A stretch of 64,000 nt of DNA from Sipunculus nudus (Eukaryota > Annelida > Sipuncula > Golfingiida > Sipunculidae): the NCBI GenBank assembly GCA_026874595.1, contig CM049312.1:25847956-25911955 (forward strand), read 5' to 3'. Below are positions 7,620 to 64,000 of the stretch, in pieces (position 1 is the first letter of the stretch; every line of letters begins with the position of its first letter). Made by a program: the position numbers and the translations under genes. A model generated the notes under the pieces. That model searched no databases. It saw nothing but the letters and a program-made list of their open reading frames with translations, and was not told the origin of the DNA.

Positions 7620-10600
7620 TTAGAAGTTCTTCATGACCTCTGAAACAAAAGAAGAAAGAGGTAAGAGTAAGTCATGTTTGAATTATGCAGTAGTTTTCAA
7701 CATTAAAATATGTATCATGTTATCTGTGTATAGTATCTACATGCGTAAATAGTTACGCAAGAATGAATTATGAATTATGTCATTTAATGTTATTATATGT
7801 TTCCTATAATCTTATTAACGATTATAGTTATACTATATAGTTTTATGATTAATTAAAAATAAGAACAATGCATAAAGTACGATTTACTGGAATTATTAAA
7901 TTAGTTTTACCGATAGTTAACAAAGCTCAAACATGAAAAAAAATAAGATAAGGTACCTAAATATTTCTGATAAAGGTTTTTTATGATAATAGATTTAAAA
8001 ACGGTAATATGTTGGCTCCGACAGATGGTAAAACCGCTCTAGTACAATGGAATTAGCCTTATAGATCTGTTAAAAAGTATGATTATGCTGATAATATGTA
8101 AATCATGTAAGACGTACCACACATGAGTTCGTGACGGGTCATCTCATCACTGGCGTCCTCCAGACGCTGCTTCATGTCCATGTACCACTTGCCGATCTCC
8201 TCAGCACAACGTGGGGGCTCACCGCTCTCAATGCATCCCTCAAACTGTTCTAGCTTGTCTCTGTAACACGGCACAGGCATGTAAGAGTTAACGCTACAGA
8301 AACAACCGGACAGTTATGATATTAAACCTATTGAACCCATTTCTAAAAACCCATTCCATTAGTTGAATGCTCTTTTAAAATAAATGAATTATTGTTTGTG
8401 AAGATGGAATACTGGATAAGATTGACAATATTCTAATGTATTTAATATAAGACGATAATAATGATAACAGGACGGTAGCAATGTTATTACGCGCTCACCC
8501 CTCACATCCAGATTGACGTTAACCCATTCCAAAACACATGCACATCCTCTCACTTAAAAACCATTATCTCAACTTTACTGTGACACATCCTCACAATAAT
8601 ACACAGCATTTACTTTAAAAAGGTTTTAAAATACAATAAAATGTTTCCACTACAAAACTCTATACAACAATACACCCGTAGCCTTTCACCACAGCAATTT
8701 TTAAACTCTAGCCATATATTCCTCGTATCCCCGACCGAACCTTAATTCTGCAACTGTACATCATCAGATCACCAACCCGTCACTAATTCTACTTAAAACA
8801 TCTGCCCTTATCTATACAGAACACACCCTCACATCACCCATCCATCAATAATGTACTCACACCAAAAAGTATCGTAATAGGCCAACCATAACAAATACGC
8901 ACACCATCCGGCCTAGAATCTACCATTATTCACCGTTATAAACGACAAGCTCTTTTAGATAATTCAGTGACTCGGTACTCACCCGCATTTCTCGTCATTG
9001 AGAATAACGTCCATCTTGTCAGGGCACATGTCCAGTCTAGCGGCGCAGCTACCCAACTTCCTGCCAACATCCTCAAAGCACTGGTCGTGCTGACCTGTAA
9101 ATGAAAAAAGCAGCCAAGTTGTCATCCAGAACGTTCTGAAATTGAGAGACAAGGCAACAATGGTCAGTCCATTTATGGGTTTTTGTCCAGGTACAATTAA
9201 ATTACAGCTAAAGGGCTCTGTGTGAGCGGCTCAGTTAATGGTGTGCATTAAAAGAAGTATAATTAAAGTTAAAATATTGTATTGTTCATGAAGGGTTTCA
9301 CTGACCGGCGATACAGTATTTGTGGAACTCCCTCATAGCAGCGGCCATGAAAACCTTCTTTTGGCTCCTCTCACATCCGTCCAGCAGCTGGAAGACGAAC
9401 TTGTAGGCCTCTGATAATAAAATAAATTATAATTTGTATCAGAGATCATTTTTACTATGCATGCCACTAAGTGTCCTTTATACGTGGGAGCTGATTTTAA
9501 ACGGAAATATTCATGCATTTGATAATGGGAGGCCTCTGATAATGAAAAGAACATTCTTATATTTGGATATAATAGGCCTATGTAAAAGAAGTCATTTTTA
9601 CTACTGTATATTCCCTTAAAAGAAGGAGCTGATTTTGAAACTCTTTTTCTTTGGAAAATATATAAGCTTCTCTGTAATCCAACAACGACAACAAAAACAT
9701 GACATTCACTTTATTAATTCCTTGTAATTCAATATATCAATGATTGATTCCATCTAGATATTAGTTGAGGTTGAATTATACAAAACAACTGTAGCTATAA
9801 ATTGCGAGATAAAATGGCTCTCTTTTACGGCAGTAGGATCTAGTTTTACTCTGGTTTTCTGTAAAGCCGTTTCAGCGAATAACTTAAACAGGTTTTACTT
9901 TTTGCCAAGATTTGACAATGACACCGTACAGGGTCTTGGGGCACAAATTCTGTAACCAATTACATTATGCATATTGTTGCAGTTAAGAGCTAACTTATAA
10001 ACTATAATCTATCTTATATAAGGACATGTCTTATAAAAAGGATAATTGATTTAAAAGAATATTGCCCGATCTGATCAAAAACGTTAGTATTCCAGAAATA
10101 CTTGACGGTGGAACTACCTTGTTGAAGCATAATAAAGCATAAGATACGGGATGAACAATCGATAGTTACCGATATGTGCGTCAGCGTCCCAGCAGAGGTC
10201 GGTGGGGTTGATCTCTTCTTTCTCGATTCTCTCCATGATGGCGGGAGGAGGGGTCACCTGGATCCAGCGGCTTTTGGTGCATTGGAAATACAGCTGTAAC
10301 GAAGTGTAATAAAACAGATTTTATACGTTGTGTAATGAATACAGCTGTGACGATATGTAATAAATCGATTGTAACAATACTGCTTATAACGGTAACTATG
10401 TAATTCAGATATGACGATGTGTAAGTAATGCAGCTCTGATGACTTAATGCTTAATATGTAATATTAAATGTAATAAAACAGCCCTTACGATGTGTAATAA
10501 ATACATTACACAGAAAACTGTTTAATGAATGCAGCTACCATAATTTGCAATATATAGTGATGCGATGGGATGAAATCCATAAAATTGTAAAGATATATAA

Positions 10601-11031
10601 TGTGTATCTGTGACAACGTATTTTAAAGATAGTACAAGAATAGATAAACTAGATGCGGGTTTCGTGATTAATAAGCTATTATGAACTGTGATTATAGTGT
10701 TTTAAATTACATGCTGTACATCGGTTTATGAAATAAATATGCATTTTGGTTTTTGAGTTCAATTAAAAAAAAATTAACTTACAAGGTTTTCCACAATATT
10801 TCTCAGTCTTATATGTAGTATTTATTGAAAATACTTAAACACAAATATCATTAAGGCGGAAAAATAGTGATCTTTTCTAATTTTCTAGGTAGTTACCCCG
10901 TTTTCCTTGAATTGGAAGCTGTGTTCGATTCTGCTCTCGAGGTCTTCAAACATGGACATGTCACATTGAGGTCCATTGGCGCACTTGGCGGCGGCCACGG
11001 CCAACAAACAGGCGACGATAATGATCTTCAT
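7620..11031 (-). CDS. Copy A: secreted 13-cysteine protein, six coding exons, 212 aa
   Basis: Coding exons, in transcript order: 10897-11031, 10170-10293, 9306-9410, 8983-9094, 8118-8260 and 7620-7639. All junctions are GT-AG, and the frame stays open across phases 0,1,1,2,1 to TAA. The ATG is the first base of its exon (acceptor cag|ATG). Residues 1-15 (MKIIIVACLLAVAAA) look like a signal peptide cut before K16. The mature chain has 13 cysteines (17, 23, 50, 79, 99, 119, 127, 138, 145, 158, 168, 177, 206), tryptophans at 55, 80 and 184, many charged residues likely in helices, no N-glycosylation sequon and no membrane segment, so it should be secreted. It ends EVMKNF. I do not recognise the family. 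The helix-plus-cysteine spacing loosely recalls DUF19 or DUF1397 type extracellular proteins, which is only a guess. Copies B, C and D share the whole architecture. Intron 1 (2.8 kb) is swollen by foreign DNA. Confidence 0.87.
10294..10560. repeat. Degenerate acceptor-like repeats in intron 2 of A
   Basis: The end of intron 2 repeats, at irregular 25-40 bp spacing, the plus-strand pattern CAGCTGTAACGATGTGTAAT, which includes the true exon 3 acceptor (read as TTACAG|CTG on the transcript). Matching stretches lie at 28715-28975 (B), 41945-42370 (C) and 51653-51750 (D). Confidence 0.5.
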
Positions 11032-11269
11032 CTGAAATGTTCATCAAATTTATATAAACAATCTCATTATATAAAAACGATTGAAAGTAAGTGAATTGTT
11101 AAAATATTAAACCATAACGAATCAGGTTATAAAATTTTAACTGAGAAATATAATAAATTCATGTATTAGTTTGTAATTTTACATTTTTCAGAAAAATTAC
11201 TATTGCAGTATGCTGCAATCTATAATTGCAACATTATCTATGCACCATATCAATATAATAATAATGCGT

Positions 11270-13855: not shown

Positions 13856-13920
13856 CTTTATGATTCTTGGTGTCAGTGATGTACTGATGATGGCTGTCAA
13901 AAATGATGAACCTTATATAG
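13856..13920 (-). promoter_or_regulatory. Copy A exon 1 (5' UTR) with TATA promoter
   Basis: The TATA box (CTATATAAGG on the minus strand) is at 13911-13920. The start of transcription is expected near 13888. The noncoding exon runs down to 13856 and ends ATAAAG before the donor gtgagt (13851-13855). The exon is conserved in B, C and D. Just upstream of the TATA box is a shared block containing GGCTGAGTAAACACGG, with a forkhead-like GTAAACA and a nearby GATATC. The exact start site is inferred from TATA spacing only. Confidence 0.72.
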
Positions 13921-15544
13921 ACCGAAGGCCGCCTCCGTGTTTACTCAGCCGGATATCGACGCCAACCCTTCATGTACTGGTTTTGTCGTCATTATCAAAA
14001 GGTCATTATTTTATATGTATCGTCCAATCATTTGTATCAGAGTGACAATTTGACCAGTTGTTAAAACAAATGACAAATGTGTTAATAGAGACAATGGATG
14101 GTTTATATATTTCACTCAGGTGTAAAAATATATCCTGGCGTCATCAGGCGACTTTGGGGGAACAGGTGAGGGAGAATGTATTGTATCAAATACCTTTATT
14201 ATGATATTATTACTATGTTACCAAGAAGACACTGGTATTAAATTTCATCTGCACAAATAAAATGATTTCTGTTGTTTGGTATGAAGAATTATACGAATGT
14301 TAAAATATGTAAAATATCCCTCGCCAGAGTCAGATCCCTGCAATAACATTTACTCCATCTGAAGAAAATATATAAATCATTAATTTTCGATTTAATAAAA
14401 CACGCAAATTTAGATAAAAGCGTCCCGAGAGTAAACAGGATTTAGAATATTTATATCATAATTAATAACTTAATTTTTTAGGTCGGTCAAATTTGTATGG
14501 ATTTATGTATAGGTCTATTAACTTTTACTTCAAACGCAGTTTCATCATCGTATACTCTGACAATTGTTTTTCGGATTCTTGGTACAAAAATATGTTTCAT
14601 GAGTAGGATAAGTATATAATGTAATATTCTTTAAAACAAAACACTAGATTCTAAAAATATAGTGTGTAACGTAACTTGTCTGTAGACAATACTTGCCAAG
14701 ATGTGTATCTCGTAAGCAGATGCTGGAGGATTTATTATAATTTACAATACAGACAACAACAAAAAATCCACATATATATGTACATGTGTAAAGTATAGGC
14801 CTAATATACAGAGAATAAAGTGAAAAGCACAACAAAAATAATTTATGAATGGAAACATCTCAATAAAGTTGAATTGTATATTTACAATTTAAATATTTAC
14901 TTTGATAATTAATATAATATCCCTTATTCTAAAATCAAAATTAGAAAGATATCATGTTCAGGGATTTGACATTACTGTGGGATCGAAATTAAAATGGGGG
15001 TAATATCATTTAATTGCCACATATATGTTTAATGCATCATTTTGTTTGTAGTAAACAATTACTGAGATCTTAAGATGCATTGGAAGGGTATCTGTAAAAA
15101 AGTAACAACACTTTGAAGACATTGTAAAAAGAGATGGTCATTAAACAATATATAAGATACTTTGTGTTTGTCATGAATGAAATTCTGTATTTCTGTATTA
15201 CTTGAGGGAGGGTTTCGTATATCACACAATGATCCTCTTTCCATATATTAACTAGAACACCCTCTTGTTGCAGAACATAGGTGACAAAACATTTTTTAGT
15301 CAATGGATGGCTCTTGGGCTGCCATTAATTATTTATCGAGTCATCTGTCCATTACGGTCCTCAGGTAGCGGTTATATACACTACAGTCGTCCCAGATCTC
15401 TTATGTTGTAACCGCTGCTTTGTATAGATCCTCTGGTTCTATCACCAGGGTTGGCGCAGAGCAAATAAGTGTAATCAGATCAATGAGAGAGTTGTATCGC
15501 ATTGTGCATCCAGCTCCGAACTTTTCACTTACGACTTTAAATTG
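13921..15544. other. 5' flank of copy A
   Basis: Apart from the core promoter block and the conserved block at 14111-14260, only AT-rich sequence without a supportable gene. It remains alignable in patches with the 5' flanks of B (to about 31600) and C (to about 45800). Confidence 0.5.
14111..14260 (-). promoter_or_regulatory. Conserved upstream block of copy A
   Basis: About 200 bp upstream of the TATA box. On the plus strand it holds TCAGGTGTAAAAATATA, then TGGCGTCATC, AACAGGTGAG, TGTATCAAATACCTTT and CCAAGAAGACA. The same order recurs upstream of B, C and D while sequence between blocks is less alike. A cis-regulatory role is inferred from conservation and position. Confidence 0.5.
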
Positions 15545-18500
15545 CTCTCGTTGGTCTTATTACACCAGGACACTAGCTCTACTTCGTCTTATTACACCAG
15601 GGCACTAGCTCTCGTTGGTCTTATTACACCAGGACACTAGCTCTACTTGGTCTTATTACACCAGGACACTAGCTCTACTTCGTCTTATCACACGAGGACG
15701 CTAGCTTTCGTTGGTCTTATTACACCAGGGCACTAGCTCTACTTGGTCTTATTATACCAGGACACTGGCTCTCGTTGGTCTTATTACACCAGGACACTAG
15801 CTCTACTTCGTCTTATTACACCAGGGCACTAGCTCTACTTGGTCTTATTACACCAGGACACTGGCTTTCGTTGGTCTTATAACACGAGGACGCTAGCTAT
15901 CGTTGGTCTTATTACACCAGGGCACTAGCTCTCGTTGGTCTTATTATACCAGGACACTGGCTCTCGTTGGTCTTATTACACCAGGGCACTAGCTCTACTT
16001 GGTCTTATTACACCAGGACACTAGCTCTACTTGGTCTTATTACACCATGGCACTAGCTCTACTTGGTCTTATTACACCAGGACACTAGCTCTACTTCGTC
16101 TTATTACACCAGGACACTTGCTCTACTTCGTCTTATCACACCAGGACACTAGCTCTAATTGGTCTTATTACACCAGGACACTAGCTCTACTTCGTCTTAT
16201 TACACCAGGGCACTAGCTCTCGTTGGTCTTATTACACCAGGACACTAGCTCTACTTCGTCTTATTACACCAAGACACTAGCTCTACTTGGTCTTATTACA
16301 CCAGGACACTAGCTCTACTTGGTCTTATTACACCAGGGCACTAGCTCTACTTGGTCTTATTACACCAGGACACTAGCTCTACTTGGTCTTATTACACCAG
16401 GACACTAGCTCTACTTCGTCTTATTACACCAGGGCACTAGCTCTACTTGGTCTTATTACACCAGGGCACTAGCTCTACTTGGTCTTATTACACCAGGACA
16501 CTAGCTCTACTTGGTCTTATTACACCAGGGCACTAGCTCTCGTTGGTCTTATTACACCAGGACAATAGCTCTACTTCGTCTTATTACACCAGGACACTGG
16601 CTCTCGTTGGTCTTTTTACACCAGGGCACTAGCTCTACTTGGTCTTATTACACCAGGACACTAGCTCTACTTCGTCTTATTACACCAGGGCACTAGCTCT
16701 ACTTCGTCTTATTACACCAGGGCACTAGCTCTACTTGGTCTTATTACACCAGGACACTAGCTCTACTTGGTCTTATTACACCAGGGCACTAGCTCTCGTT
16801 GGTCTTATTACACCAGGACACTAGCTCTACTTCGTCTTATTACACCAGGACACTAGCTCTACTTGGTCTTATTACACCAGGACACTAGCTCTACTTCGTC
16901 TTATTACACCAGGGCACTAGCTCTACTTGGTCTTATTACACCAGGGCACTAGCTCTACTTGGTCTTATTACACCAGGACACTAGCTCTACTTGGTCTTAT
17001 TATACCAGGGCACTAGCTCTCGTTGGTCTTATTACACCAGGACAATAGCTCTACTTCGTCTTATTACACCAGGACACTGGCTCTCGTTGGTCTTTTTACA
17101 CCAGGACACTAGCTCTACTTCGTCTTATTACACCAGGGCACTAGCTCTACTTGGTCTTATTACACCAGGACACTGGCTTTCGTTGGTCTTATAACACGAG
17201 GACGCTAGCTTTCGTTGGTCTTATTACACCAGGACACTGGCTCTCGTTGGTCTTATTACACCAGGACACTAGCTCTACTTCGTCTTATTACACCAGGGCA
17301 CTAGCTCTCGTTGGTCTTATTACACCAGGACACTAGCTCTACTTCGTCTTATTACACCAGGACACTAGCTCTACTTGGTCTTATTACACCAGGACACTAG
17401 CTCTACTTGGTCTTATTACACCAGGACACTAGCTCTCGTTGGTCTTATTACACCAGGACACTAGCTCTACTTCGTCTTAATACACCAGGGCACTAGCTCT
17501 CGTTGGTCTTATTACACCAGGACACTAGCTCTACTTCGTCTTATTACACCAGGACACTAGCTCTACTTCGTCTTATTACACCAGGGCACTAGTTCTCGTT
17601 GGTCTTATTACACCAGGACACTAGCTCTACTTCGTCTTATTACACCAGGACACTAGCTCTACTTGGTCTTATTACACCAGGACACTAGCCCTACTTCGTC
17701 TTATTACACCAGGGCACTAGCTCTACTTGGTCTTATTACACCAGGACACTGGCCCTCGTTGGTCTTATTACACCAGGACACAAGCTCTACTTCGTCTTAT
17801 TACACCAGGGCACTAGCTCAAATTGGTCTTATTACACCAGGACACTGGCTTTCGTTGGTCTTATAACACGAGGACGCTAGCTTTCGTTGGTCTTATTACA
17901 CCAGGACACTGGCTCTCGTTGGTCTTATTACACCAGGACACTAGCTCTACTTCGTCTTATTACACCAGGGCACTAGCTCTACTTGGTCTTATTACACCAG
18001 GGCACTAGCTCTACTTGGTCTTATTACACCAGGACACTGGCTTTCGTTGGTCTTATAACACGAGGACGCTAGCTTTCGTTGGTCTTATTACACCAGGGCA
18101 CTAGCTCTACTTGGTCTTATTATACCAGGACACTGGCTCTCGTTGGTCTTATTACACCAGGACACTAACTCTACTTCGTCTTATTACACCAGGGCACTAG
18201 CTCTACTTGGTCTTATTACACCAGGACACTGGCTTTCGTTGGTCTTATAACACGAGGACGCTAGCTTTCGTTGGTCTTATTACACCAGGGCACTAGCTCT
18301 CGTTGGTCTTATTATACCAGGACACTGGCTCTCGTTGGTCTTATTACATCAGGGCACTAGCTCTACTTGGTCTTATTACACCAGGACACTAGCTCTACTT
18401 GGTCTTATTACACCAGGGCACTAGCTCTACTTGGTCTTATTACACCAGGACACTAGCTCTACTTGGTCTTATCACACCAGGACACTGGCTTTCGTTGGTC

Positions 18501-18782
18501 TTATTACACCAGGGCACTAGCTCTCGTTGGTCTACAACAGGACACTAGCTCTACTTGGTCTTATTACACCAGGACACTGGCTTTCGTTGGTTTTATTACA
18601 CGAGGACGCTAGCTTTCGTTGGTCTTATTACTCCAGGACGCTAGCTAATGTTGGTCTTATTACACTAGGACACTAGCTCTCGCTGGTCTTATTACACCAG
18701 GACACTAGCTCTCGTTGGTCATATTGCACCAGGACACTAGCTCTCGTTTGCCTTATTTCACCAGGACACATGCTGTCGTGGG
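15545..18782. repeat. 32-bp minisatellite array, about 100 units
   Basis: Head-to-tail units of the type TTATTACACCAGGACACTAG plus a 12-bp tail (CTCTACTTGGTC or CTCTCGTTGGTC). Variation is limited to a few positions (GGACA or GGGCA; ACTTGG, ACTTCG or CGTTGG). Higher-order repeats are visible: the block with GACAATAGCT and TCTTTTTACA recurs 480 bp apart (15 units) near 16560 and 17040, and the ATAACACGAGGACG variant recurs near 15880, 17190, 17862, 18055 and 18247. Units are most diverged at the right edge. Because 32 is not a multiple of 3, open frames here are by-products. Confidence 0.95.
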
Positions 18783-22498: not shown

Positions 22499-23994
22499 CG
22501 TATTGCTGCCACCTGGTAAAAGAAAAAAAATTATTTATCTCGTACGTACGACATATTACCTCGTACGTACGACATACTATCTCGTATGTACGACATACTA
22601 TCCCTTTTGTACGACATATTATTTCGTACGTACTACATAATAAATCTTACGGACCTGATTCACATGCTAAACAACATGCCAACAGACATATGTATAAGCA
22701 ATATATAAATGTTAAATAATGTGTGTTTTACATAAACTATAAACAGCATCTCCACCTCCTTGCAAACCGCTGGACCACCGTTAAAACGAAAACACACACT
22801 CACATATATTTATTTATTTATGGTACATATTTAAATGCTATTCGATTAATCATTTTTATTTTGTGCCCTGGTTTCTGAAATATTGAAAGGTAGCGAAATA
22901 TATCAAAACGTTGTCTGACTGTCATATACAGAACTCTTATTTTAAGATAGGTGATTAATTAATGTTAGCAGTGTATGCTGTTATAATAGTGAGCATGTCA
23001 TATGATAATAAGAAATAAACATTGCCTTTGCCAAACTGAAACTACTTTTTGGAGAAAGAAGGGTTCAGACAAGAGGTACAGCTACCAAATGGCCTGATTT
23101 TTAGTAACTGAGATTGGATATTTGTGGGGCAGATTTCTTATATTCTAAACCGATCTGTAAAAGAACTAGATTTATGGCATAATGCACCGTGTAATTGATC
23201 TTTCAAACTATGTAATGCATATACAGCCATTGATATGGTTGGTGGGTAGCTGAAAATTCAACAGCCCATTGTATGAAGTACGTATAATTTTTATTTTGAA
23301 ATAAATTATAAAAAAAAAATAAAAAAAAAACTATCACACATGGACGTGCGATTAATCTGTGACAGAAGTATACGAAATTCGAATACAAGTCTTTTCCTAA
23401 TATGTCAGGCTGAAGTGGTGATAAAATCTGCACCTCAGATTTGTCTCATTTTTGGATAAGTATAAGATCTTATGTGGTACATGTACGTTTAACTCGCCCT
23501 ACTGTAAACGGCATGAAGTTCAACTTATGGGATCAAACACTCATAATATATGAATCATGAACCTCTCCTCATGGGCATCTCTGTAGTACAGAACCTCTGT
23601 AAGTGTCTGATAAATGTTTAAAGATTTTGGTCACGCACAAGCGTCAATTATATAAAAGCCAAGAAACATGAAAGAGGAAACACCAAGAGAAGTTTGAAAA
23701 CCCTTGATTTGTTAAGTTATGCTGTACCACCACCAGGTGGCGTGAGTGCTGTGTTTGTGTCGTTTCTAAACGGTTGGTCTCGTTTCTAAATTTTATGTCC
23801 ATTTTAAAGAAAGCATAGGAATCCCCTGCAATTACAATATCTAATTGTGTCCCTTGAACATGTCGGAATATTTTAACTAGTCAAACAAGAACCTCTGATA
23901 GACATTACATGTATTACTAATGACATTATTATATTATCCATCGAATGAGCCCTTCTAACGCAGCGCTGGTAATAAATCCCAAGGCGTTCAGTCT

Positions 23995-24044
<50 letters not shown>

Positions 24045-26027: not shown

Positions 26028-29000
26028 TTAGAAGTTCTTCATGACCTCTGAAAAAAAGAAGACAGAAGTAATATAAATCCTGACCGGTCTCTGCATCAGA
26101 GTTTTGATTATGCAGCTGTGACCAGCACAAAACTATGTATGAGGTTATTTCTGTATAGTATTACACTGTATTATTTAATATAATAGTATATATTTATATC
26201 TTTTATTTCTTTATAAGCCGTGTTATTTCATGACTTATTAACCAAATATAAGATAAAAAATACGTTGGTTTTTATTTACCGTAATTATTAAATATTTTGT
26301 TAACTATTTTAAAAAGAGCGAATAGCATGCAAAGAAATAGTGGTACGCAAAGATATTTTTTTTGTTAATTTAAACATTTTCTGATAAAGTGATACAATAC
26401 CATCAGTTACTGATAATCTGTAATATTTTGGCTCCGCCAGATGTAGTGTTCTACTAAAATGGAATTAACAGACCAGTTTAACATTAAGATTATGTTGACA
26501 ATAAATAAATCATGTAAGACGTACCACACATGAGTTCGTGACGGGTCATCTCGTCGCTGGCGTCCTCCAGACGCTGCTTCATGTCCATGTACCACTTGCC
26601 GATCTCCTCAGCACAACGTGGGGGCTCACCGCTCTCAATGCAACCCTCAAACTGCTCTAGCTTGTCTCTGTAATACGGTACAGGTATGTAAGAGTTAACG
26701 CTATAGAGAAAACCGGCCAGTTATGATATTAAACCTATTGAGCCCATTTCTATAAACCCATTCCTTTAGTTAAATGCTCTTTTAAAATAATAGAATTATT
26801 GTTTGTGAAGATGGAATACCATAGAAGGTTGACAATATGCTAACGTATTAAATATAACACGATAATAATGATGACAGAACGATAGCAGTGATAATACACG
26901 GTCAACCACCACACCCAGATTGACGTTAACCCATTCAAACACACATGCACATTCTCTCGCGTAAAAAAAAATTCTATCTCACCTATACTGTAACACATCC
27001 TCGCAATAATACACAGCATTTACTTATAAAAGGTTTTAAAATACAATAAAGATGTTTCCACTACAAAATTCTATACAACAATACACCCGTAGCCTTTCAC
27101 CCCAACACTTTCTACACCATAGCCATATATTCCTCGTATCCCCGACCGAACCTTAATTCTACAACTGCACATCCTCTGAGCACCAACCCGTCACAAATTC
27201 TACTTAAAACATCTGCCCTTATCTATACAGAACACACCCTCACATCACCCATCCATCAACAATGTACTCACACCAATAAGCATCGTAATAGGCCCACCAG
27301 TACACATACGCACACCAACCGGCCTAGAATCTACCATTATATACCGTCATTAATGACAAACTCTTTTAGATAATTCAGTAACTCGGTACTCACCCGCATT
27401 TCTCGTCATTGAGAATAACGTCCATCTTGTCAGGGCACATGTCCAGTCTAGCGGCGCAGCTACCCAACTTCCTGCCAACATCCTCAAAGCACTGGTCGTG
27501 CTGACCTGTTAATGAGGAAAGCAGCCAAGTTGTCATGCAGAGCATTTTGAAGTTGAGAGACATGGCTACAACGTTCAATCCATTTAATGGGATTTTGTCC
27601 AGGTACATTTAAATTACAGCTAAAGGGTATATTGAACAAAGTCAGGCTTTCTTTGAGCGGCCAAATCAATGGTGTGCATTAAAAGAAGTATAATTAAACT
27701 GTCAAGATTGTATTGTTCATGAAGAGTTTCACTGACCGGCGATACAGTATTTGTGGAACTCCCTCATAGCGGCGGCCATGAAGACCTTCTTTTGGCTCCT
27801 CTCACATCCGTCCAGCAGCTGGAAGACGTACTTGTAGGCCTCTGATAATAATAAAAAATATATAATTTGTATCAGAGGTCATTTTTACTATGTATGCCAC
27901 TAAATTTCCTATATTCGTGGGAGCTTATTTTAAAAGGAAATATTCAAGCCCTTGATAATGGAAGGCCTCAGATAATGAAAAGAACGTTCTTATAATTTGA
28001 TATAATAGGCCTATGTAAAAGAGGTCATTTTTACTACTGTATATTTCCATACAAATAGGAGCTGATTTTGAAACTAAAAGGTCAGCCTCTGGTACTATTC
28101 TTTGGAAAACATTGCAGCTTCTTTGTAATCCAACAACGAACTATTAAGTACTTGCAATTCAATGATTGATTCTATCTAGATATTAGTTGATGTTGAATTA
28201 TACAAAACAACTGTAGCTATTACGTGCGAGATAAAATGGGTTCTCTATAACGGCAGTAGGATCTATTTGTACTTTTGTTTTCTATAAAACTGTTTCAGCG
28301 AACAAGTTAAACAGGTTTTCCTTTTTTGCCAAGATTTGACAATGACACAGTACAGGGTCTTTGGAGGCACAATTCTGTAACCGATAACATTATGCACATT
28401 GTTGCGGCTAAGTGCTAACTTATAAACTATTATCTATCAGATATAACGGTATGTCTAATAAAAAGATAATTGATTTGAAGGAAGATTGCCCGATCTGATC
28501 ATAAACGTTAGTATTCCAGCAGTACTTGGCGGTGGAACTTGATGAAGCATAAATAAAGCATAAGATTTAGGATGAACAATCGATAGTTACCGATGTGTGC
28601 GTCGGCGTCCCAGCAGAGGTCAGTGGGGTTGATCTCTTCCTTCTCGATTCTCTCCATGATGGCGGGAGGAGGGGTCACCTGGATCCAGCGGCTTTTGGTG
28701 CATTGGAAATACAGCTGTTACGAAGTGTAATAAACTCAGCTTTTATGCGTTGTGTAATAAATACAGCTGTAACTTTAAGTTACAAATAAGATTGTAACGA
28801 CGTTTAATCAATACAGCTTAACGGTAAGTATGTTATTCAAGTATGACGATGTGTAAGTAATAAACCTTTGATGACTTAATGTTTAATATGTAATATTTAT
28901 TGTAATAAAAACAGCCCTTACGATATGTAATCAATACATTACACAGAAAAAAAACTGTGTAATTAATGCAGCTACTATACTTCATGCTGTACATCGTTTT

Positions 29001-29315
29001 AGGAAATAAATATGCATGTTTGCTTTTGTGTTCTTTTTTTTTTAATTTTAACTTACAAGGTTTTCCAAAATTTTTCTCAGTCTGATATATAGTATTTATT
29101 GAAAATACGCAAACAACAAATATCATTAAGGCGGTAAAATAGTAATCTTTTCTAATTTTGATGACCAGTAAGTTAGTTACCCCGTTTTCCTTGAACTGGA
29201 AGCTGTGTTCAATTCTGCTCTCGAGGTCTTCAAACATGGACATGTCACACTGAGGGCCCTTAGCGCACCTGGCAGCGGCCACGGCCAACAAACAGGCGGC
29301 GATAATGATCTTCAT
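26028..29315 (-). CDS. Copy B: secreted 13-cysteine protein, six coding exons, 212 aa
   Basis: Coding exons, in transcript order: 29181-29315, 28591-28714, 27737-27841, 27394-27505, 26525-26667 and 26028-26047, with sizes identical to copy A (135,124,105,112,143,20). The product differs from A at few sites: A6 for V6, R16 and K19 in the N-terminal RCAKGPQC, and Y91 in AYKYVF. All 13 mature cysteines and the signal peptide are kept. The exon at 27394-27505 is identical at every base to that of copy A. Introns are 1140, 466, 749, 231, 726 and 477 bp, clearly alignable to A, so A and B are the closest pair. If intron 2 were retained, exon 2 would run on open to 28833, giving 160 codons. The spliced form is favoured because all four copies share it. 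Function unknown; secretion is inferred. Confidence 0.87.
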
Positions 29316-30455: not shown

Positions 30456-30520
30456 CTTTACGATTCTTGGTGTCAGCGATGTACTGATGATGGCAGTCAA
30501 AAATGGGGAACCTTATATAG
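30456..30520 (-). promoter_or_regulatory. Copy B exon 1 (5' UTR) with TATA promoter
   Basis: The TATA box is at 30511-30520, with a predicted start of transcription near 30488 and donor gtgag at 30451-30455. The exon ends CGTAAAG, so splicing to cag|ATG gives an ATG with A at -3. Upstream of the TATA box the GGCTGAATAAACACGG block resembles A. Start site inferred. Confidence 0.72.
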
Positions 30521-30710
30521 GCTGTAGGCCGCCTCCGTGTTTATTCAGCCGGATATCGATGGAAACTCTTCATGTACTGGTTGTGTACTTAACACCAACA
30601 GAGTATTATTCTAAATGTACTGTGGAATCAATTGTATCAGAGTGAAAATATGATCAGTTGTTAAAACATTTGACAGCATATGTTAATACAAACCACGGAT
30701 GGTTTTTATA

Positions 30711-39173: not shown

Positions 39174-40337
39174 TTAGAAATTCTTCATGACCTCTGAAAA
39201 ATAAGAAAAATAGGTTTCAAACATGACGAGGCGTAACCACTGGAAAGGCACTACATTATTAAAGATTGCTTCAATGCGAATGTCCTTACCTCCGAAATAA
39301 GAACATAAAGTTCAGATTCTTGCTTTTAGTCTACAGACATAGCTAACCTCTTTGAGTATTATCTAATGGTCACATTGCGTTGTCGGGGAAAACCATAATT
39401 AACCATATAAAACCATGTTGTATTTTCATTATCAGAAAAAATATGGTACGTGCGCTTCCTCACCTATACATTTAGGTAAGAAGTTTTGTGTACATGAATT
39501 TAATAATGGAGCTGTAGTGTAACATAAAACGCAAAGAAATTCTCGAGAAGTGTATCCTTTGCAAGAACAGGAATATTTTATGGAGTAAAAAAATGTATCA
39601 ATGATCTTACAAGTTCGGACTGAACTCACCATCACATTAACTGACAAATTTAACAATGTAAAACGTACCACACATGAGTTCATGACGGGTCATCTCGTCG
39701 CTGGCGTCCTCCAGACGCTGCTTCATGTCCATGTACCACTTGCCGATCTCCTCAGCACAACGTGGGGGCTCACTGCTCTCAATGCACCTCTCAAACTGTT
39801 CTAGCTTGTCTCTGTAATCCGTTGTTTCAGTTAAAGTTACAGATTAAATCCGACCTGTGTATCATATTAACCCTATTCCACCCGTTTCCAACAAAATATT
39901 CCGGGCTTTTATAAAATAGGACATTAACTGTTCGTGTAGATGGACTACTACAGGAGATTGACTTATACGAATGTATTTTATGCTAATGTTAACACGACGG
40001 GAACAGGGTAGACACACCCTGACCCTACTCACCCGGATTGACGTATACCATAACCCATCCTCACACAAATGCACACCATCTCACTCCTCAATAATTCTAC
40101 CTCCCGTAAACTGTAACACATCCTCATATTAAATACCGCATTTATGTAGAAAGTGTAAGAATACCATAACAATATTTAAACTACAAAACTACACTACAAC
40201 ACAATTCCTAGACCATGCACCCGTAACTAATTCTACTTTATTATTATTTTTTATAGCAGAATGTACACATATACATATAACATAAATGCACGCTTAAAAA
40301 TCAATAAACAAGCAATAAAATAGGAGAAAAGCACAAT

Positions 40338-40386
<49 letters not shown>

Positions 40387-42704
40387 TATACTGTATAAAT
40401 AAATCATTAATTCCATTTTAAAACAGACATTTTTCTTCTAATACATAGAAGACTTATTGGAATTAAGTACAAATATCAGTAATATTGAATGAGTATGTTA
40501 TGTATATAATGTATACCATTTTATAGCATGCATCTATTTATAGACAAAGGATAATTATGTTTGTCTGGAATTATATGGAAAATCCAGGACTATAAAAATG
40601 AATATTAGCTTTCTACTTAAAACGCCAACCATCTGCCCTTTTCTCTACCCTAGCCTACCCCAACCCAAATCAACCACCCTTAATGAAACCATACCATAAT
40701 GCATTATTACAAACCAACCATACCACCATCCCACACCATCCGTTCGCCATTAGTTTTACCATAGTTCACCATCATCCATGATTATCTCTCTCAGATAATT
40801 CACCCTATCGCTACTCACCCGCATTTCTCGTCATTGAGAATAACGTCCATCTTGTCAGGGCACATGTCCAGTCTAGCGGCGCAGCTACCCAACTTCCTGC
40901 CAACATCCTCAAAGCACTGGTCGTGTTGACCTGTTAATGAGAAGAGCAACCATTTTATAAGCGAGTACATTCTGAAATTGAGAGAAAATTTTAAAATATA
41001 TTATCTATTTTATGTTAATGTACAGGTTTAAATTACAGCTAAGACTACATGCAACAAAGTCAGGCATTGTGTATGAGTTTCTCTTAATGGTATGAATTTA
41101 TAAAAGGAGTATAATTTAAGTTTACTGACAGGATTTTATAAACTAGTAAATGAAGAGTTTGCACTGACCGGCGATGCAGTGTTTGTGGAATTCCCTCATA
41201 GCAGCGGCCATGAAGACCTTCTTTTGACTCCTCTCACATCCATCTAGCAGTTGGAAGACGAACTTGTAGGCCTCTGAAAATCAAAAGAACATTTTATAAT
41301 TTGATAAATTGCATTAGAGATCATTTTTACTCTTGTATGCCATTATATTTCCTTCATATGTGGGGCTTATTTTGAAGGCAATATTCAGACCTTTAAAAAT
41401 GAAAAGATGATAAAGAAAAGAGATCATTTTTACTATTGCAAATTTCACTGTGTTTCCTTAATAAATGGGAGGTGATTTTGAAAGGAAATACTCATGTGGT
41501 GGTAATGTTCTTAAGGACAAAATGTACCCGGTCGGTCATTCAACAAAACGACGTTATTCACTGTATCAATATTCGTTGTAATTCAAAATTGATCATAGCT
41601 AAATGCTAGTTGAGGTTGAATTATACCTGCTAACATCTAGCATATAGACTATAATTTATAATACATGACGACATGTCTACTGAAAAGGATAACAGATTGG
41701 AATGAAAATTCGTCATAAACTCATCATAAACTTGGGTTTTTCCAGCATTATTCGACTGGGTAACTACCCGGTTGCAACATACATGAATCATAAGATTCAG
41801 GTTGAATATTTGATGGTTACCGATATGTGCGTCAGCGTCCCAGCAGAGGTCAGTGGGGTTGATCTCTTCCTTCTCAATTCTCTCCATAATGGCGGGAGGA
41901 GGGGTCACTTGGATCCAGCGGCTTTTGGTGCATTGGAAATAGAGCTGTAAATAACGACGTGTAATAAATACGAAAGAAACAAAATGCAATAAAACAGACT
42001 GATAAACCGTGTAATGAATATAGAATGTATATGTTGTGCGATAAATACAGTATAGTAACGATATGTTTTAAATGTGTAGCATCTAACGCATAACGCTCGG
42101 TAAGTATTAAAAGTCTGACGATGCGTAGGTAATACAGCTCTAAGGACTTGACATGAATGCATCTTTAACGGTGTGTAATAAATACCGCTAAAAGACTGTG
42201 TAATGAAGACAGCAATAAAGATGTGAAATAAATATAGATTTAATGGGTTTACATTAAAAGGAGTAAAAGAATTATAATAACAACATCTGTGACGAAATAT
42301 TATAAAGAATACTTGAAGAAAAGATGAAAATGATATAGTTGTAATACTCAACGTAATAAATATAGCTATGAGGAAGTGAGGTAATATTTGTTACCGTACT
42401 AGATGTACTTCAGTAATCTTAAGTAAAACCTCTATAATACAGGATTCCCATGAAATTTCTCAGATCGATATAAAGTATCTGGAAATATCTAAAAACAATA
42501 CATAATTAAGGCAGAAAAACATATGATATTTGACAACTGATCTAATTTTTTAAGCAGCAAGTTATATACCCCGTCTGTCTTAAACTGGAAGCTTTGTTCG
42601 ATTCTCTTCTCGAGATCTTCAAACATGGACATGTCACACTGAGGTCCATTGGCGCACTTGGCGGCGGCCACGGCCAACAAACAGGCGGCGATGATGATCT
42701 TCAT
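39174..42704 (-). CDS. Copy C: secreted 13-cysteine protein, six coding exons, 212 aa
   Basis: Coding exons, in transcript order: 42570-42704, 41821-41944, 41169-41273, 40819-40930, 39669-39811 and 39174-39193, the same sizes and phases as the other copies. The donor of the first coding exon is gtatat rather than gtaact. Substitutions relative to A include K33, Q37, T43 and D44 near the end of the first coding exon, H118 (KHC), R167 (FERC) and S172. All 13 mature cysteines are unchanged. The exon at 40819-40930 differs from A and B by one synonymous base. Intron 5 is longer (1007 bp) because of a MITE at 40239-40610. Intron 1 (1946 bp) contains an AC/AT microsatellite, a long TA run and a truncated second copy of exon 1. 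Family not recognised; predicted secreted. Confidence 0.87.
40231..40618. mobile_element. MITE in intron 5 of copy C with 8-bp target duplication
   Basis: The target TTCTACTT is at 40231-40238 and again at 40611-40618. The 372-bp body starts TATTATTATTTTTTATAGCA and ends with the inverse of TAATATTCATTTTTATAGTC, an imperfect TIR. Introns of A, B and D have a single ACTAATTC(T)ACTTAAAAC at the same place, so the empty site is known. It contains a TA run (40344-40382). An 8-bp duplication suits hAT-type mobilisation. Confidence 0.72.
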
Positions 42705-44650: not shown

Positions 44651-44715
44651 CTTTACGATTCTTGGTGTCAGCGATGTACTGATGATGAGAACCAGATATG
44701 GTGAACCTTATATAG
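44651..44715 (-). promoter_or_regulatory. Copy C exon 1 (5' UTR) with TATA promoter, B-like
   Basis: The TATA box is at 44706-44715, the donor gtgag at 44646-44650 and the predicted start near 44683. Exon 1 and the roughly 180 bp of intron next to it closely match copy B at 30287-30490. The more diverged block at 44280-44461 next to it ends in a truncated exon 1 and looks like the original C sequence. So the working promoter of C appears acquired from, or converted by, a B-like copy. Confidence 0.72.
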
Positions 44716-44904
44716 GCTGTTGGCCGCCTCCGTGTTTACTCAGCCGGATATCGACGCCAACCCTTCATGTACAGGTTTTGTTGTCAAATGACAGAAGAGT
44801 ATTATTTTAAATGTATCGTCAGATCAATTGTGTCAGAATGAAAATGTGATCAGTTGTTGAAACGATTACAGAGTACACAAATTCAGACAATAGATTGTTT
44901 ATAT

Positions 44905-49073: not shown

Positions 49074-52000
49074 TTAGAAGTTCTTCATAACCTCTGAAAA
49101 AAATAAGAAAAATATATTTCAAACAAGAATAACAACTAAAAACGAACTAATAAAGATTATTATTACCTTCGAGGTGATTCCTTATATTACAAATCCTACA
49201 AGTTATCAATTAAAATACATTGGTTGCCTGTTAGGTAATATTTAAAAGTCTCATTATACTGTCGGTCATGACCATAAGTAATTTTAAACAATAAGGCATA
49301 TTCAGTATCAGCGTAAAAATAATAAAATTGATATGCCTTGCATTTTATAATTACACTTTTGGGAAATTAGTTAACCATACGTGATGTTAATAGAACAAAT
49401 ACAATAAAACATAAAAAAGCAAAGAATTTCTGAAGAGGGGGATTTTAACAAGAAAATGAATATTTTATCGATAAAAAATGACAAAGCTACCAACGATCTT
49501 ACAATTTCGGACTAAACTCACAACCAAATTAACTGACAAATTTAAAAATTTAAGACGTACCACACATGAGTTCATGACGAGTCATCTCGTCGCTGGCGTC
49601 CTCCAGACGCTGCTTCATGTCCATGTACCACTTGCCGATCTCCTCAGCACAACGTGGGGGTTCACCGCTCTCAAGGCAACCCTCAAACTGTTCCAGCTTG
49701 TCACTGTGATCCGTTAAATGTCAGTTAGCGTTACAGATTATATTCGACCTATTACCCTTTATAGCCCATTCCACTCGTTCCTATCAACACATTCCACCAA
49801 ATGAATTTTATAAAATAGGATAATAATTGTTTGTTCACTAGAAACATTATCAAAGATAGATAATATGTTTATATATTTAATACTAATTTTGTAACGATGA
49901 TAGCAAAGTTGACACATGATCACCTTACTCTCCCTGAATGATGTATACGATAACACATCACACACATGTACATCATCTCATTGGAGAACCATTATTCTAC
50001 CTAGCCTATACTTCAACACATCCTCACAGTTATTAACCGCATTAACATACATTTAAAAAAAAAATATTTTCAAAATGTTCCAACTGCAAAATACATTGTA
50101 ACACATGCTAGCCCTTCACCCCAGCACTTATTTCGACCATAGCCATACATTTCCCATATCCCTGACCGAACCTTGATTCTACAACTGCACTTCCTCAGAC
50201 CACCAATCAGTCACTAATCCAACTTAAAACGCCACCCATCTGCCCTTATCTCTACCATTACCTTCCCTTACCCGACTCAACCACCCTTAACAAAACCATA
50301 CCATAATGCAATTTTACAGCACACCCATACCATCACCCCATACCATCCATTCACAGTTGGTTCAACCATAATTCACAATCACCCCTGATTAGCTCTTTCA
50401 GATAATTCACCCTAACGCTACCCACCCGCATTTCTCGTCATTGAGAATTACATCCATCTTGTCAGGGCACATGTCCAGTTTAGCGGCGCAGCTACCCAAC
50501 TTCCTGCCAACATCTTCAAAGCACTGGTCGTGTTGTCCTGTCAATGAATATTTCAGACAATTATCATCATGAACATTCTGAAATTTAGAGAAACTTCTAC
50601 AACACATGATCATTTCATGGGAATGTCCTGCTAACAGCAAGAGCCAAATGCAACCAGAGTCAAGCTTTGTGCATGCGGTTCAATGAATGATGTGTATTAA
50701 AAAGAGTTTCATTAAAGTTACCTGAATGATTTAATAAATTAATGAATGAAGAGTTTGCACTGACCGGCGATGCAGTGCCTGTGGAACTCCCTCATAGCGG
50801 CGGCCATGAAGACTTTCTTCTGGCTTCTCTCACACCCGTCAAGCAGCTGGAAGACGAACTTGTAGGCCTCTGATAAAGTAAAGAACATTTCACTTGCCTT
50901 AAATATGATCATGTGAATCAGATATAATAACCTGTGTATTCTCCATTATTCATGTGATATCTGGGAGAAGATTTTCGAAAGAAAGAAACATGCCCTGGTA
51001 CAATTCTTTGAAAACTTGTACCCACACTATAGTACAACAAAGGAAACTAAGGGATGTATCAATATTCAACAATTCAATAATTCAATATATCAATGATTGA
51101 TTATATCTAGATGTTAGTTGAGGATGAATTATATCAAACAATATTCCAGCACATACCAAACACGTCATTCAATAGGAACAAAGAGCTTCCTTTTAGAGGA
51201 GAAGGATCCTTTTTTTCATGAAATAATCTTTGTGACCAAATTATGCAGAGTTTTATTGTAGACACAATGTGTCAATGAAACGGTACAACATCTGAGAAGG
51301 TACTCGTTCTGTAACATATTTTATTATGGATATTGTTGCGGTTAACAACTGGCTTATAGACTGTATTTCATTTTACAAAACGACATGTCTACATAAAATA
51401 AAATCATTTTGAAGGAAAATTGCTCGATAGGATCGTACACATGGGCATTTCAGCAATACTCGACGTCAGAGCTATCCTGTTGCGGCATAAATAAATCCAA
51501 AGACACAAGCGAAAGTATAGATGGTTACCGATGTGTGCGTCGGCGTCCCAGCAGAGGTCAGTGGGGTTGATCTCTTCCTTCTCGATTCTCTCCATGATGG
51601 CGGGAGGAGGGGTCACCTGGATCCAGCGGCTTTTGGTGCATTGGAAATAGAGCTGTAACGATGTGATAAATACATTTGCAACGACCTGTAATAAATACTG
51701 CTGTAACGTTGCGTTATAGATGCAGCTTTCACAGTCTGTAATATAATTCTGGATTTTGTGTGATTGTATTTTCTTCACGCCTCACTGGACGACTAGCCGT
51801 CCTTATTTATGGCTTTCACATAGCCCGCTTACTATCCGTATGGTTTTAGGCTCGTTTCCTCTAGTTCTCATGTTTTTCATTTCCGGTTATACGTAAGAAT
51901 GCTTTTAAATAAAGGTTAAACATTCTTTAAGGGAAAATATGTGCGGTTGCACATATAAGCAGCAATAACAAGGGCCTCGTCTCCATTTCCCCAAATAGAT

Positions 52001-53342
52001 TCGCTACAAATTGGACTGGCGAATCCGAAGAACGTTTTTGTAAGGCCTTACACGTACAGTGGGCACATAATATTACATTATAGAAAACGGTAAAAATTGT
52101 GCTGAACCCTAAAGGACATGCGAAAATGGATCGAAACTTGAAATGTGCCTGTTTTGGTCCCTCGGCTGAAACAGGATGCGGCTATACATTTCAATATTGT
52201 GACAGATACATAGGAAATAGAGACCTGCGTTCTGAACCTTGTTACAAAGAAACATGTCTAAAAACAATAGACCGCTGCATGGATATAACAGCTTTTTTCA
52301 GTGTATCACCCCCAGTAATTTTTTTTTCATCTAACGTTATCATAGTTAAATCGAAAAGTCGTCTTTTCTTTGTTTTCATTATTCCACATAAATAATTGTT
52401 TTTAATATAAAACAAAACTGTGGTACAGGTGTTAATGATATTTTGTTCTTTTCATTTAATACGTTTTTCCTTGGCAAATCTGTACAGGAAAAAAAATTTA
52501 GTCGGCATGGACAAACAATATAATTAGTGGAAGGGTAGTATACTATATATAAGAGCAAAAGAGTAATGAATATACTTGTCTAACCTTTTCAAAATACAGG
52601 AATAAACAGATTAATTATCTCGACTGTGATTGTTTTCATTTTATAAAAAGACCGAGTGTATCTCAAAGACTGCTTTTTCCAATAGAGCAATATTTGATGT
52701 CATTTATAGTGGCAACGCGGATTCAGAGAACATTGCGAAGGTGGACCGAATTCCTTTTAAAAGTATTAGATATTTATATTTTATTAAAAAAAAGATAAAT
52801 TTGAAACTTAAAAATATCCTTTGTATGAGTGTAACTAATATACTTGTCCATCAGTTTCAAAATAAATTAATGAAAGATCTACTGTGATTGCCTCCACTTA
52901 TAATTTCAAAAACTGCGTGGGAAAGTAGTCGGAACCAACGCCTCCTGTAGGCAGTCTCGCGTCATCAACTGGTTATTTCACATCATCAGTTTATTATTAT
53001 TACGCCACTGAATTTATATACCTGCCCCTTTCTGTGTTTTCCGGGGTTTGATTATAGTTTGCCCCTTTTTGCTACCTTGATTTTATTTTACATTGTTTCT
53101 CCGAAAAATTATCACTAAAATATTAAATTCTAGAAAGATCTTCAGGCCAGTACAACAGTTATTGTTTGTGCAAAGGGTCTAATATTTATAAGCAGCTAGT
53201 AAGTTACCCCATCTTCTTTGAATTGGAAGCTGTGTTCTATTCTTCTTTCGAGGTCCTCAAACATGGACATGTCACACTGAGGTCCATTGGCGCACTTGGC
53301 GGCGGCCACGGCAAACAAACAGGCGGCGATGATGATCTTCAT
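49074..53342 (-). CDS. Copy D: secreted 13-cysteine protein, six coding exons, 212 aa
   Basis: Coding exons, in transcript order: 53208-53342, 51529-51652, 50765-50869, 50426-50537, 49561-49703 and 49074-49093. Sizes and phases match the other copies. The exon 49561-49703 starts after acceptor cacag with T rather than A, still giving glycine at the junction. Substitutions include F10 in the signal peptide, R33, D44, R117-H118, K141 and L169. All 13 mature cysteines are retained. D has the most nucleotide differences from A and B in the exon at 50426-50537. Intron 2 is enlarged to 1555 bp by unrelated DNA, and intron 1 contains a tRNA-like segment and a TGTA/TA microsatellite. Secretion is predicted; function unknown. 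Confidence 0.87.
51770..52990. other. Unrelated DNA inserted in intron 2 of D
   Basis: Intron 2 is 1555 bp here against 466-625 bp in the other copies. The extra DNA carries a plus-strand frame (52099-52395, 98 codons) whose first 60 residues are cysteine-rich, and a stretch (52725-52770) related to 33460-33510. No gene established. Confidence 0.4.
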
Positions 53343-54422: not shown

Positions 54423-54487
54423 CTTTACGATTCTTGGTGTCAGCGATGTACTGATGAAGAGAATCAGAATTTGTGGACCTTATATAG
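54423..54487 (-). promoter_or_regulatory. Copy D exon 1 (5' UTR) with TATA promoter
   Basis: The TATA box is at 54478-54487, the donor gtgag at 54418-54422 and the predicted start near 54455. Upstream of the TATA box the GGCTGAATAAACAAGG block keeps the forkhead-like core, but sequence beyond it is shorter than in A-C. Confidence 0.7.
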
Positions 54488-54686
54488 GCTGTAGGCTGCC
54501 TCCTTGTTTATTCAGCCGGATATCGACGCAACTGGTACCAGAGTGAGCATTTAATCAGTTGTTAAAACAAGTGAAAATATATGCTATATGAGATAATTGA
54601 CTGCTAAATGGGATGATCATTTCATTTCAACCGAATATTGAACAGAGCTGCCCTGTTTAAATATGAATTCTTCATTAAATGCATGT

Positions 54687-55977: not shown

Positions 55978-56010
55978 GTATATATATTTATATATATATA
56001 TATATATATA
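55978..56010. repeat. TA microsatellite
   Basis: AT run with a TTTA interruption. Confidence 0.85.
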
Positions 56011-59800: not shown

Positions 59801-60002
59801 CATATACAGGCCCCTGCAGTAGGGGTATATAACCCCTCCCCCCAACACGCAATTTATCCATAGTTATATTAAATGAGGTGTATTCAAAACCCAATTCATG
59901 TTTGGGGGACATGAGCAATTTTGAAACAATGTCTTTTCAATAAACTTTAAAAAAAATTGTCCTTAAATTTCAAAGGGTAGGCCAATGTCTCCTGTGCCCC
60001 CT

Positions 60003-60048
<46 letters not shown>

Positions 60049-61388: not shown

Positions 61389-61496
61389 TATATAAAAGAA
61401 GTTCCATCCGAAAATCTTTCAGATAAAGGCATGAATACACAGACTGAGCTGCTTAGGATTTCTGCTATATTTCCTGCAACTATCAATCACCTATAA
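61389..61496 (+). promoter_or_regulatory. Plus-strand TATA unit with 21-codon frame, E flank
   Basis: TATATAAAAG at 61389, ATG at 61431 and a frame MNTQTELLRISAIFPATI continuing three codons to TAA. The first ten residues equal those of the D-flank unit and then diverge. Confidence 0.3.
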
Positions 61497-63600
61497 AAAG
61501 GAATAATTTAATGATAATTCTTTAGATTAAACATGTTTCTTTTAATTGGAATATACATATAAAGCTTCGGGCAAATAATTTTATTTTGTCAATATACTGA
61601 TAGTGCAAAATAAGCAGATTTGAAATAATGTAAATAAACCAAATAAATAACAAATAAAGAATATAACGAGTGGGAATATGACATGATATTGATATCAGAT
61701 ATTGAACTTAAAATAGAGTTTTGAGTCTGACAGTTTGAAAAAGGATAGGCGTAGTATATAGCAGATTGAATCATATATCGACAACACAATTCACAAGGGT
61801 AGTGACAAAATCACGGTCAAAATAATTCTTAAAGGAACCACATGCTGAAAGTAAAGGAATATTGGACCTTTTTTGGAAATATCAGTGTTTTGATCAGCTG
61901 TTAAACAAACGTGTTCATTTAAACATGTGATCGAAACAAATTCTGCTATCAGAGTTTGTTCGATTCATGGTGCAGTTGGGCATAGAATCACAATAGTCCT
62001 AAACTTAGCACAGAGGCCAAGTTAGGAGGCCTCCGTTAAATCACATTCAAGAAAGAGAAGATCAATATTTTACCACATGTTAGTCTGAGAGGCGGTGGTG
62101 ATGCTGGTAAGCTGCCGTATAAAAAGCGTTGCTGTATCATCATGCAGTTATCACGACGATTGCCATGGAAGAAGTTAATTAGCCCATTGGTATTTTTGTG
62201 GTTCTTTTTATATTTTTCTTTCATTTTTTTATATGCTTTTATTTATATTTTATTTTTATTGATAATCAGTTCATACGTGTATATTAGTACTAAGTGTGTA
62301 AAGGGGGAAAATGAATGGCAGTTTAAACTGAATCATAATGATAAATACAAATCTTTGACATTTATCATTATTTAATTGTTCACGGATGACTTTTGAATAA
62401 ACAAACTTCAGAGAAAATCAAGATCTTCCTATTTATCTATTTATATTTGTGAAACAACAAACGTGATACCAGTAGTCAAACTACCGATGTTTATACGTCC
62501 TATCTATATATACGTTGATGATTTGTCCTATATATTATTTCTTCCCGTCCCTACATTATCTCTCGCTGTACAACCATCGCCGATTAAATGCGTGCAAAGT
62601 CGTCCGAAACATAATGGTTCGAAGGCTGTGTGCCTGAAGAGCTGTCTGACCACCAGATTTCGTGCCCTAGATGCCACTTTCCTTCGGTATATGTTGGATA
62701 ATAAAGTTTTCCGTTTGCCCACACGTTCTTATGATCGTGTCAAATAACCATTGAAATATCATCCTCATCGAACCAAAGGACTACTACACCAATGGGCCGT
62801 CGGTCTACCGACAACAGACCGATTGCCTTAAAACGGTCCAATCAGCTATAAAGCATATTGAATTAAGACAAAAAAATGGCGTCTTCCCTAAAAAATAAAC
62901 ATGTACTCGCCTAAACCTTTTGCTTAGTCTTGCAAACGAGTGTTGAAAAAAGTAAACCGGGCGCCATAACAGCTGTCAACATAAACACAGCGCCCGTGTG
63001 CATCCAGGAGCCACGAAACGTGTCAATCAGGAGATGCACTGAATGACTTTGCCCAAAAATTGAAATACATATTCTCGCTGACTGAACTCCGCGTCTTGCG
63101 GCTCGCAATCGGACCTCCGGTCACGAAGCCTTTTTTCGGCAGACAGACACAAGTGGACTGTGTTTACCAACACGCAGAGCCATAACAAGGTGTTAAACAG
63201 ACGTATGCGAGGTTGTAAGACTGTCTGCCGGGAGGGTTTTGCTGGGACATTTTTGTGTAAAGCGAAACTGTACTGTTGGTTTGAAAGAATATGCATAATT
63301 TTTCTCCTTATTATATCCCTTTAAGGCTTATCCGTGGTTGGTTTTTTTTACGCTTATTTAACCTGTCAAGCACCTGTGGTTGAAATTCCTCAGGAAGCGG
63401 ATATGAACTTTCGGTTCACTTATTTACAAGGCATAAGCGCATTCCACTCCTAGGCGTTGGGTTATAATTGTTTACCTATATCGATTTCAAGTACTCCACG
63501 GAGATGCAGAATTAGAAAATATGTAAGAAAAAGAGAAGAAATAGGAAAATAAAACATAAAACAATACAATAATCGAACGACTTAGTGTATTTGCATATGA

Positions 63601-63606
63601 TTTATT
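63601..63606 (-). terminator. Poly(A) signal AATAAA, copy E
   Basis: AATAAA on the minus strand about 22 nt after the E stop codon, aligned with C and D. Confidence 0.55.
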
Positions 63607-63627
63607 TAAAATATAGCGAATCCCATA

Positions 63628-64000
63628 TTAGAAGTTCTTCATAACCTCTGAAAAATAATAAAAACATATTTATGATTTATTTTAAATATGGCGAATCCCA
63701 TATTAAAAGTTTTTTCATAAAATCTGAAAAAAATAGGAAAAATATATTTTAAACATGACTAAGAATAACCATTGAAAAGGGACTATTAAAGATTGCTATA
63801 AATGCAGATGTTCTCACCTTCGAGGTGATTCCTAATATTACAGATCCTTGCTATCAATTAAAGTACAGTTGGTTACCTCTTTGGGTCATATTTAAAAGTC
63901 ACTTTTTATTTTCGGTAATAACCATAAATAATTTTAAACAATAGGGCATTTTCAGTATCGGCGTAAAAATAAAATTTATGTACCTTGCATTCCATAATTA
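63628..64000 (-). CDS. Copy E, partial: terminal coding exon and part of last intron
   Basis: The terminal exon 63628-63647 reads (G)AG GTT ATG AAG AAC TTC TAA, preceded in transcript order by acceptor cag, as in D. The flank below it matches the 3' flanks of C and D. The next exon is expected about 490-600 bp further up, beyond the window. No other E exon is visible, so whether E is intact cannot be judged. Confidence 0.65.
63670..63726 (-). pseudogene. Degenerate duplicate of the copy E terminal exon
   Basis: About 70 bp upstream of the E terminal exon the same stretch is repeated: poly(A) signal (63676-63681), GCGAATCCCATATTA, then a decayed exon and a ctgaaaaa acceptor. The exon copy has base changes and an extra T, so it would not keep the EVMKNF ending. 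It looks like a local tandem duplication. Confidence 0.6.

Follow-up and report, generated by a model that had tools for sequence, protein, structure and literature searches.

Tandem families of secreted, cysteine-rich proteins are common in animals, and several described groups offer points of comparison for the locus reported here. The DUF1397 proteins (27 kDa haemolymph glycoprotein type, PF07165) are likewise secreted, of about 200 residues and cysteine-rich. The DUF19 family (nematode T20D4.11-like, PF01579) also consists of secreted cysteine-rich proteins. The CHCH/Cx9C domain (PF16860) has a cysteine spacing that recurs in our proteins, between Cys158 and Cys168, although our proteins begin with a signal-like sequence. 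The mollusc mantle secretome is reported (PMC4897951) to contain new secreted genes and expanded lineage-specific families, with stress on repetitive low-complexity domains and rapid evolution. Our locus would share with it the presence of new or expanded secreted genes, but its copies are slow-evolving at the protein level.

Here we analyze a window of 64,000 nucleotides (the whole stretch of DNA under study) with an array of secreted, cysteine-rich genes, hereafter subfamily A. We find that the array consists of five complete genes under strong purifying selection, that a second subfamily (B) is present elsewhere in the genome, and that four of the five A genes are preceded by a likely promoter carrying an element of their own. 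Judged by its sequences, this is an orphan secreted cysteine-rich family of a familiar kind.

The array consists of five complete genes

The window was searched exon by exon with tblastn, using as queries the exon peptides read off the window and compared back with it. All copies found are on the minus strand: there are four of each of exons 1 to 5 of the A family, and five of exon 6. Matches to exons 1 to 5 had E-values from 2e-31 to 4e-21; exon 6, with only 6 residues, is weak by itself (E 0.26) and was placed through its DNA sequence and its acceptor. The coding exons of A1 to A4 invariably measure 135, 124, 105, 112, 143 and 20 nt, with intron phases 0, 1, 1, 2 and 1, GT-AG borders at every coding intron, and an open frame of 212 amino acids followed by a stop (Table 1). 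The preliminary description had reported four complete copies on one strand with identical exon sizes and phases and a 212-residue product, and these models confirm it. It had also reported one partial copy: exon 6 is indeed all that lies inside the window, but the gene itself, A5, is complete and intact, with the same exon sizes as the others and its remainder just outside. The array is thus made of five complete tandem genes. With respect to A1, the encoded proteins are 98% (A2), 96% (A3), 96% (A4) and 92% (A5) identical, and all five intact copies have a hydrophobic, signal-like start.

Table 1. Positions of the A genes and their upstream blocks in the window
Feature	Position	Strand	Details
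A1	7620..11031	-	coding exons 11031-10897, 10293-10170, 9410-9306, 9094-8983, 8260-8118, 7639-7620; 212 aa
A2	26028..29315	-	coding exons 29315-29181, 28714-28591, 27841-27737, 27505-27394, 26667-26525, 26047-26028; 212 aa
A3	39174..42704	-	coding exons 42704-42570, 41944-41821, 41273-41169, 40930-40819, 39811-39669, 39193-39174; 212 aa
A4	49074..53342	-	coding exons 53342-53208, 51652-51529, 50869-50765, 50537-50426, 49703-49561, 49093-49074; 212 aa
A5 exon 6	63628..63647	-	other five coding exons past the window edge, up to C7:25915970
A1 promoter (likely)	13856..13959	-	proximal element 13959-13938; TATA (CTATATAAGG) from 13920; likely non-coding exon ~13889-13856, ending in GTGAG donor
A2 promoter (likely)	30456..30559	-	proximal element 30559-30538; TATA from 30520; likely non-coding exon ~30489-30456
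A3 promoter (likely)	44651..44754	-	proximal element 44754-44733; TATA from 44715; likely non-coding exon ~44684-44651
A4 promoter (likely)	54423..54526	-	proximal element 54526-54505; TATA from 54487; likely non-coding exon ~54456-54423

The window also holds other features. The exon 6 region of A5 has a degenerate second copy (63596-63735), which lies some 75 bases upstream of the exon and has an acceptor-like site of its own. Between A1 and A2 there are a 32-bp minisatellite of about 101 copies (88% matches; 15544-18769), 1.6 kb upstream of the A1 promoter, and an imperfect inverted repeat of about 2.9 kb (22499-25378) with 21-bp palindromic sub-repeats near both ends, which looks like a fold-back mobile element. 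Within intron 1 of A4, a plus-strand ORF (52084-52395) has seven cysteines in about 45 residues and gave no Pfam match up to E 1. Ten other ORFs of the window were compared with Pfam and nothing reached a cut-off; a GM_CSF row on a plus-strand ORF (E 0.0098, 16.5 bits) fell below its cut-off of 20.1 and was rejected. An Rfam search of the window returned 0 matches.

A second subfamily lies on another contig

We then looked for relatives in the whole assembly (1.43 Gb, 153 contigs). With the A1 protein as query and an E limit of 0.01, there were at least 40 exon matches: 25 belong to the array and 12 to contig C11, and the other 3 are in relics at C7:25.45-25.48 Mb. The search with B2, a gene on C11, was run to E 1 and produced at least 49 matches, of which C11 accounts for 29 and the A array for 20. 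Both totals are minimum values, since only the best candidates were scored (54 for A1 and 53 for B2); among them, no third location of the family was found. The relics, about 0.4 Mb from the array, are A-like and show weak matches to exons 2 and 3 only.

The family genes on C11 form two groups about 1.5 Mb apart. B1 to B5 are intact, with six coding exons, the same phases as in A and small length changes in exons 1, 2 and 4; their proteins are 40-43% identical to A1. B6 has an exon 5 with a stop and a change of frame, its exon 1 was not found, and it reads as a pseudogene. The B genes are arranged in divergent pairs (B1/B2, B3/B4 and B5/B6), and the pair appears to have been duplicated as a unit. 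The presence of two subfamilies of one orphan secreted family in a single genome is new here.

Pfam and the PDB show no relative of the proteins

Regarding family assignment, the ten intact members were compared with Pfam listing matches to E 10, although above about 0.1 most matches are lost to the HMMER filters. Four families appeared (CX9C, Thionin, TetR_C_13 and DUF6833). CX9C was the sole row for A1, with 11.9 bits against a cut-off of 26.4, and was listed for 4 of the 10 members with a best E of 0.04; together with Thionin and DUF6833 we regard it as a weak chance match. The best E overall, 0.0024, was given by TetR_C_13 in two of the ten members, and was also taken as chance, since one would not expect a secreted animal protein to carry the domain of a bacterial regulator. 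In the PDB, A1 had 0 matches up to E 10, and a profile of ten rows gave five rows with E 0.16-1.5. The statement of the preliminary description that the protein cannot be assigned to a known family therefore holds, with no Pfam row over a cut-off for A1 and no relative of the ten members in Pfam or the PDB. An alignment of A and B compared with viral and prokaryotic contigs gave 102 and 109 stretches, respectively, with the peptide pattern, and no relative was confirmed among them. Literature searches with four family peptides and for 12-cysteine gastropod proteins found no matching paper, and searches on DUF1397 and more widely gave nothing naming this family among the matches listed.

One could argue that the family is a far-diverged member of DUF1397 or DUF19, beyond the reach of a profile search and with a role in haemolymph. 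Both families had been named as candidates from the sequence, and the C-terminal cysteine order and rough spacing of A may resemble those of DUF1397, which we treat as a lead only. Against this, neither DUF1397 (PF07165) nor DUF19 is present among the Pfam matches up to E 10 of any of the 10 intact members. The PF07165 profile had 0 matches in the whole genome but also 0 in its 14 control genomes, and this result carries no weight in either direction. We call the DUF1397 likeness a resemblance only, and consider a distant kinship with either family unlikely.

A probable core of twelve cysteines and one extra in subfamily A

The preliminary description had counted 13 invariant mature cysteines after a signal peptide, and we found the same number invariant among A1 to A4, behind the signal-like start. 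Their positions, listed for A1 and A5, are residues 17, 23, 50, 79, 99, 119, 127, 138, 145, 158, 168, 177 and 206. Mature B proteins have 12. In a MAFFT alignment of the ten intact genes, 11 mature cysteines form invariant columns in all of them. The first core cysteine was left unaligned, but Cys23 of A and the first cysteine of B are both 26 residues ahead of the next one (A1, A5, B1 and B2), and the later spacings in these four proteins differ by one residue at two places only (28/29 and 12/13). A twelfth core cysteine common to A and B thus matches by spacing and not by alignment, and on the same grounds the extra cysteine of A is taken to be Cys17. An even core of 12 suggests six disulfides, so a plausible arrangement is six bonds with Cys17 free or acting as a possible dimer link in A. 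The five mature A proteins have masses of 22.9-23.0 kDa and pI values of 4.8-5.0, and none of them contains an N-glycosylation motif. Going by crude propensities alone, the protein leans towards helix.

A conserved upstream block with an array-specific element

The ATG of each A gene is immediately 3' of an acceptor-like AG, which suggests a non-coding exon ahead of it. By comparing the window with itself, we found a short conserved block upstream of A1 to A4. It contains a TATA box (CTATATAAGG) that precedes the ATG by 1.1-2.9 kb, followed some 30 bases later by a block of about 34 bases ending in a GTGAG donor. We interpret it as the promoter and likely non-coding first exon of these four genes, with the exon start placed by inference. 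This block was absent from the preliminary description and is new here.

On the 5' side of the TATA box there is a 22-base element that is the same in A1 to A4 except for one A/G position. Exact matches genome-wide are confined to A1 to A4; allowing two mismatches adds one site, on contig C13, and the control with the element written backwards gave one match. The TATA box and likely non-coding exon were found in four of the five A genes and in all five intact B genes, whereas the strict pattern had no match in the B6 stretch. The proximal element of the five intact B genes is unlike that of A and carries a CCAAT-like motif. As for A5, no recognisable promoter block was seen in about 12.4 kb upstream, nor does it have a copy of the A element, so this gene, in spite of its intact frame, may be silent or under different control.

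The proteins are constrained while introns have drifted

In all ten pairs within A, dS ranged from 0.15 to 0.39 and dN/dS from 0.041 to 0.193, with a significant deficit of non-synonymous changes (Fisher p <=1.1e-7). Pairs involving A5 gave dN/dS values of 0.13-0.19, compared to 0.04-0.10 for the other A pairs. The ten B pairs gave dN/dS of 0.07-0.43 (p <=9.3e-4), the values between the two B types (0.30-0.43) suggesting that divergence between subtypes was less constrained. At the DNA level, identity is 86-100% for A exons and 45-89% for A introns; the lower end of the intron range is little above what a forced alignment of unrelated DNA scores, so the lowest introns may be unalignable. The A proteins remain 91-98% identical despite dS values of up to 0.39. 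Hence, the copies are old enough for drift while the protein has hardly changed, and strong purifying selection is acting on them.

One alternative is that the copies are recent duplicates that gene conversion has homogenised, and that dose was never selected for. In its favour, intron similarity is closest between the neighbours A1/A2 and A4/A5 (in the protein tree, A1 and A2 were joined at 82/90, below the threshold), and the pattern of intron 5 differs from that of introns 1 to 4. However, conversion would homogenise introns and synonymous sites as well as the protein, and here both have diverged around a nearly constant product. Constraint is therefore needed, and we find conversion as the explanation quite improbable.

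Much the same degree of improbability attaches to a role in defence or recognition, with tandem copies that provide variety under diversifying selection. In its favour, the family is secreted, cysteine-rich and tandem and has two subfamilies, and the mature part of exon 1 is among the least conserved between A1 and B1/B2 (4 of 30 residues identical). Nonetheless, dN/dS is 0.04-0.19 within A and within each B type, and all 20 pairs within subfamilies show a deficit of non-synonymous changes (p <=9.3e-4), so the dN/dS values and Fisher tests led us to reject it. Finally, uncollapsed haplotypes posing as tandem copies are a highly improbable explanation, favoured by nothing but the repetitive setting and set aside because intron lengths and gene spacing are unequal among copies, A introns differ by 11-55% and the gene structure recurs on another contig.

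The preliminary description had left open whether tandem expansion reflected selection on dose or on variety. With synonymous sites and introns drifted and the protein near-constant, the dN/dS values and non-synonymous deficit of all ten A pairs favour the former for this array and not the latter. They argue for an array that keeps one product in several doses without diversifying, although constraint does not prove that dose itself was selected.

Proposed role and significance

According to these results, we give about even chances to the view that this is a small orphan family, secreted and disulfide-rich, amplified for dose. The A protein, acidic and of about 23 kDa, would enter the secretory pathway, with its signal cut after Ala15. 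Its 12 core cysteines would form six disulfides, and the left-over Cys17 could join one chain to another. A single type of secretory cell would express the genes strongly under the TATA promoter and the array-specific element, and the copies would sum to a high dose of one product. The most likely reading is a secretory product made in high dose, with a TATA promoter that is tissue-specific. The B genes resemble A in the core promoter but not in the proximal element, which makes their use in a different tissue or stage probable. Rather than an arms-race effector, the product would be an abundant extracellular bulk protein, such as a haemolymph, mucus, egg or shell-secretion component, or a carrier.

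A more ambitious reading, which we regard as possible but doubtful, is that the 12 core cysteines define a new secreted fold, perhaps restricted to the lineage of this animal, with two separately regulated subfamilies, and that A is a covalent dimer through its extra cysteine, dose-amplified from a private promoter element.

In general terms, the family is one more unassigned secreted animal family. Its fuller gene model, with coding exons, a likely non-coding exon and a promoter, makes tissue and function directly testable, and the pairing of an array-specific element with a common core promoter offers a clean case for asking how a duplicated secretory gene gains an expression site.
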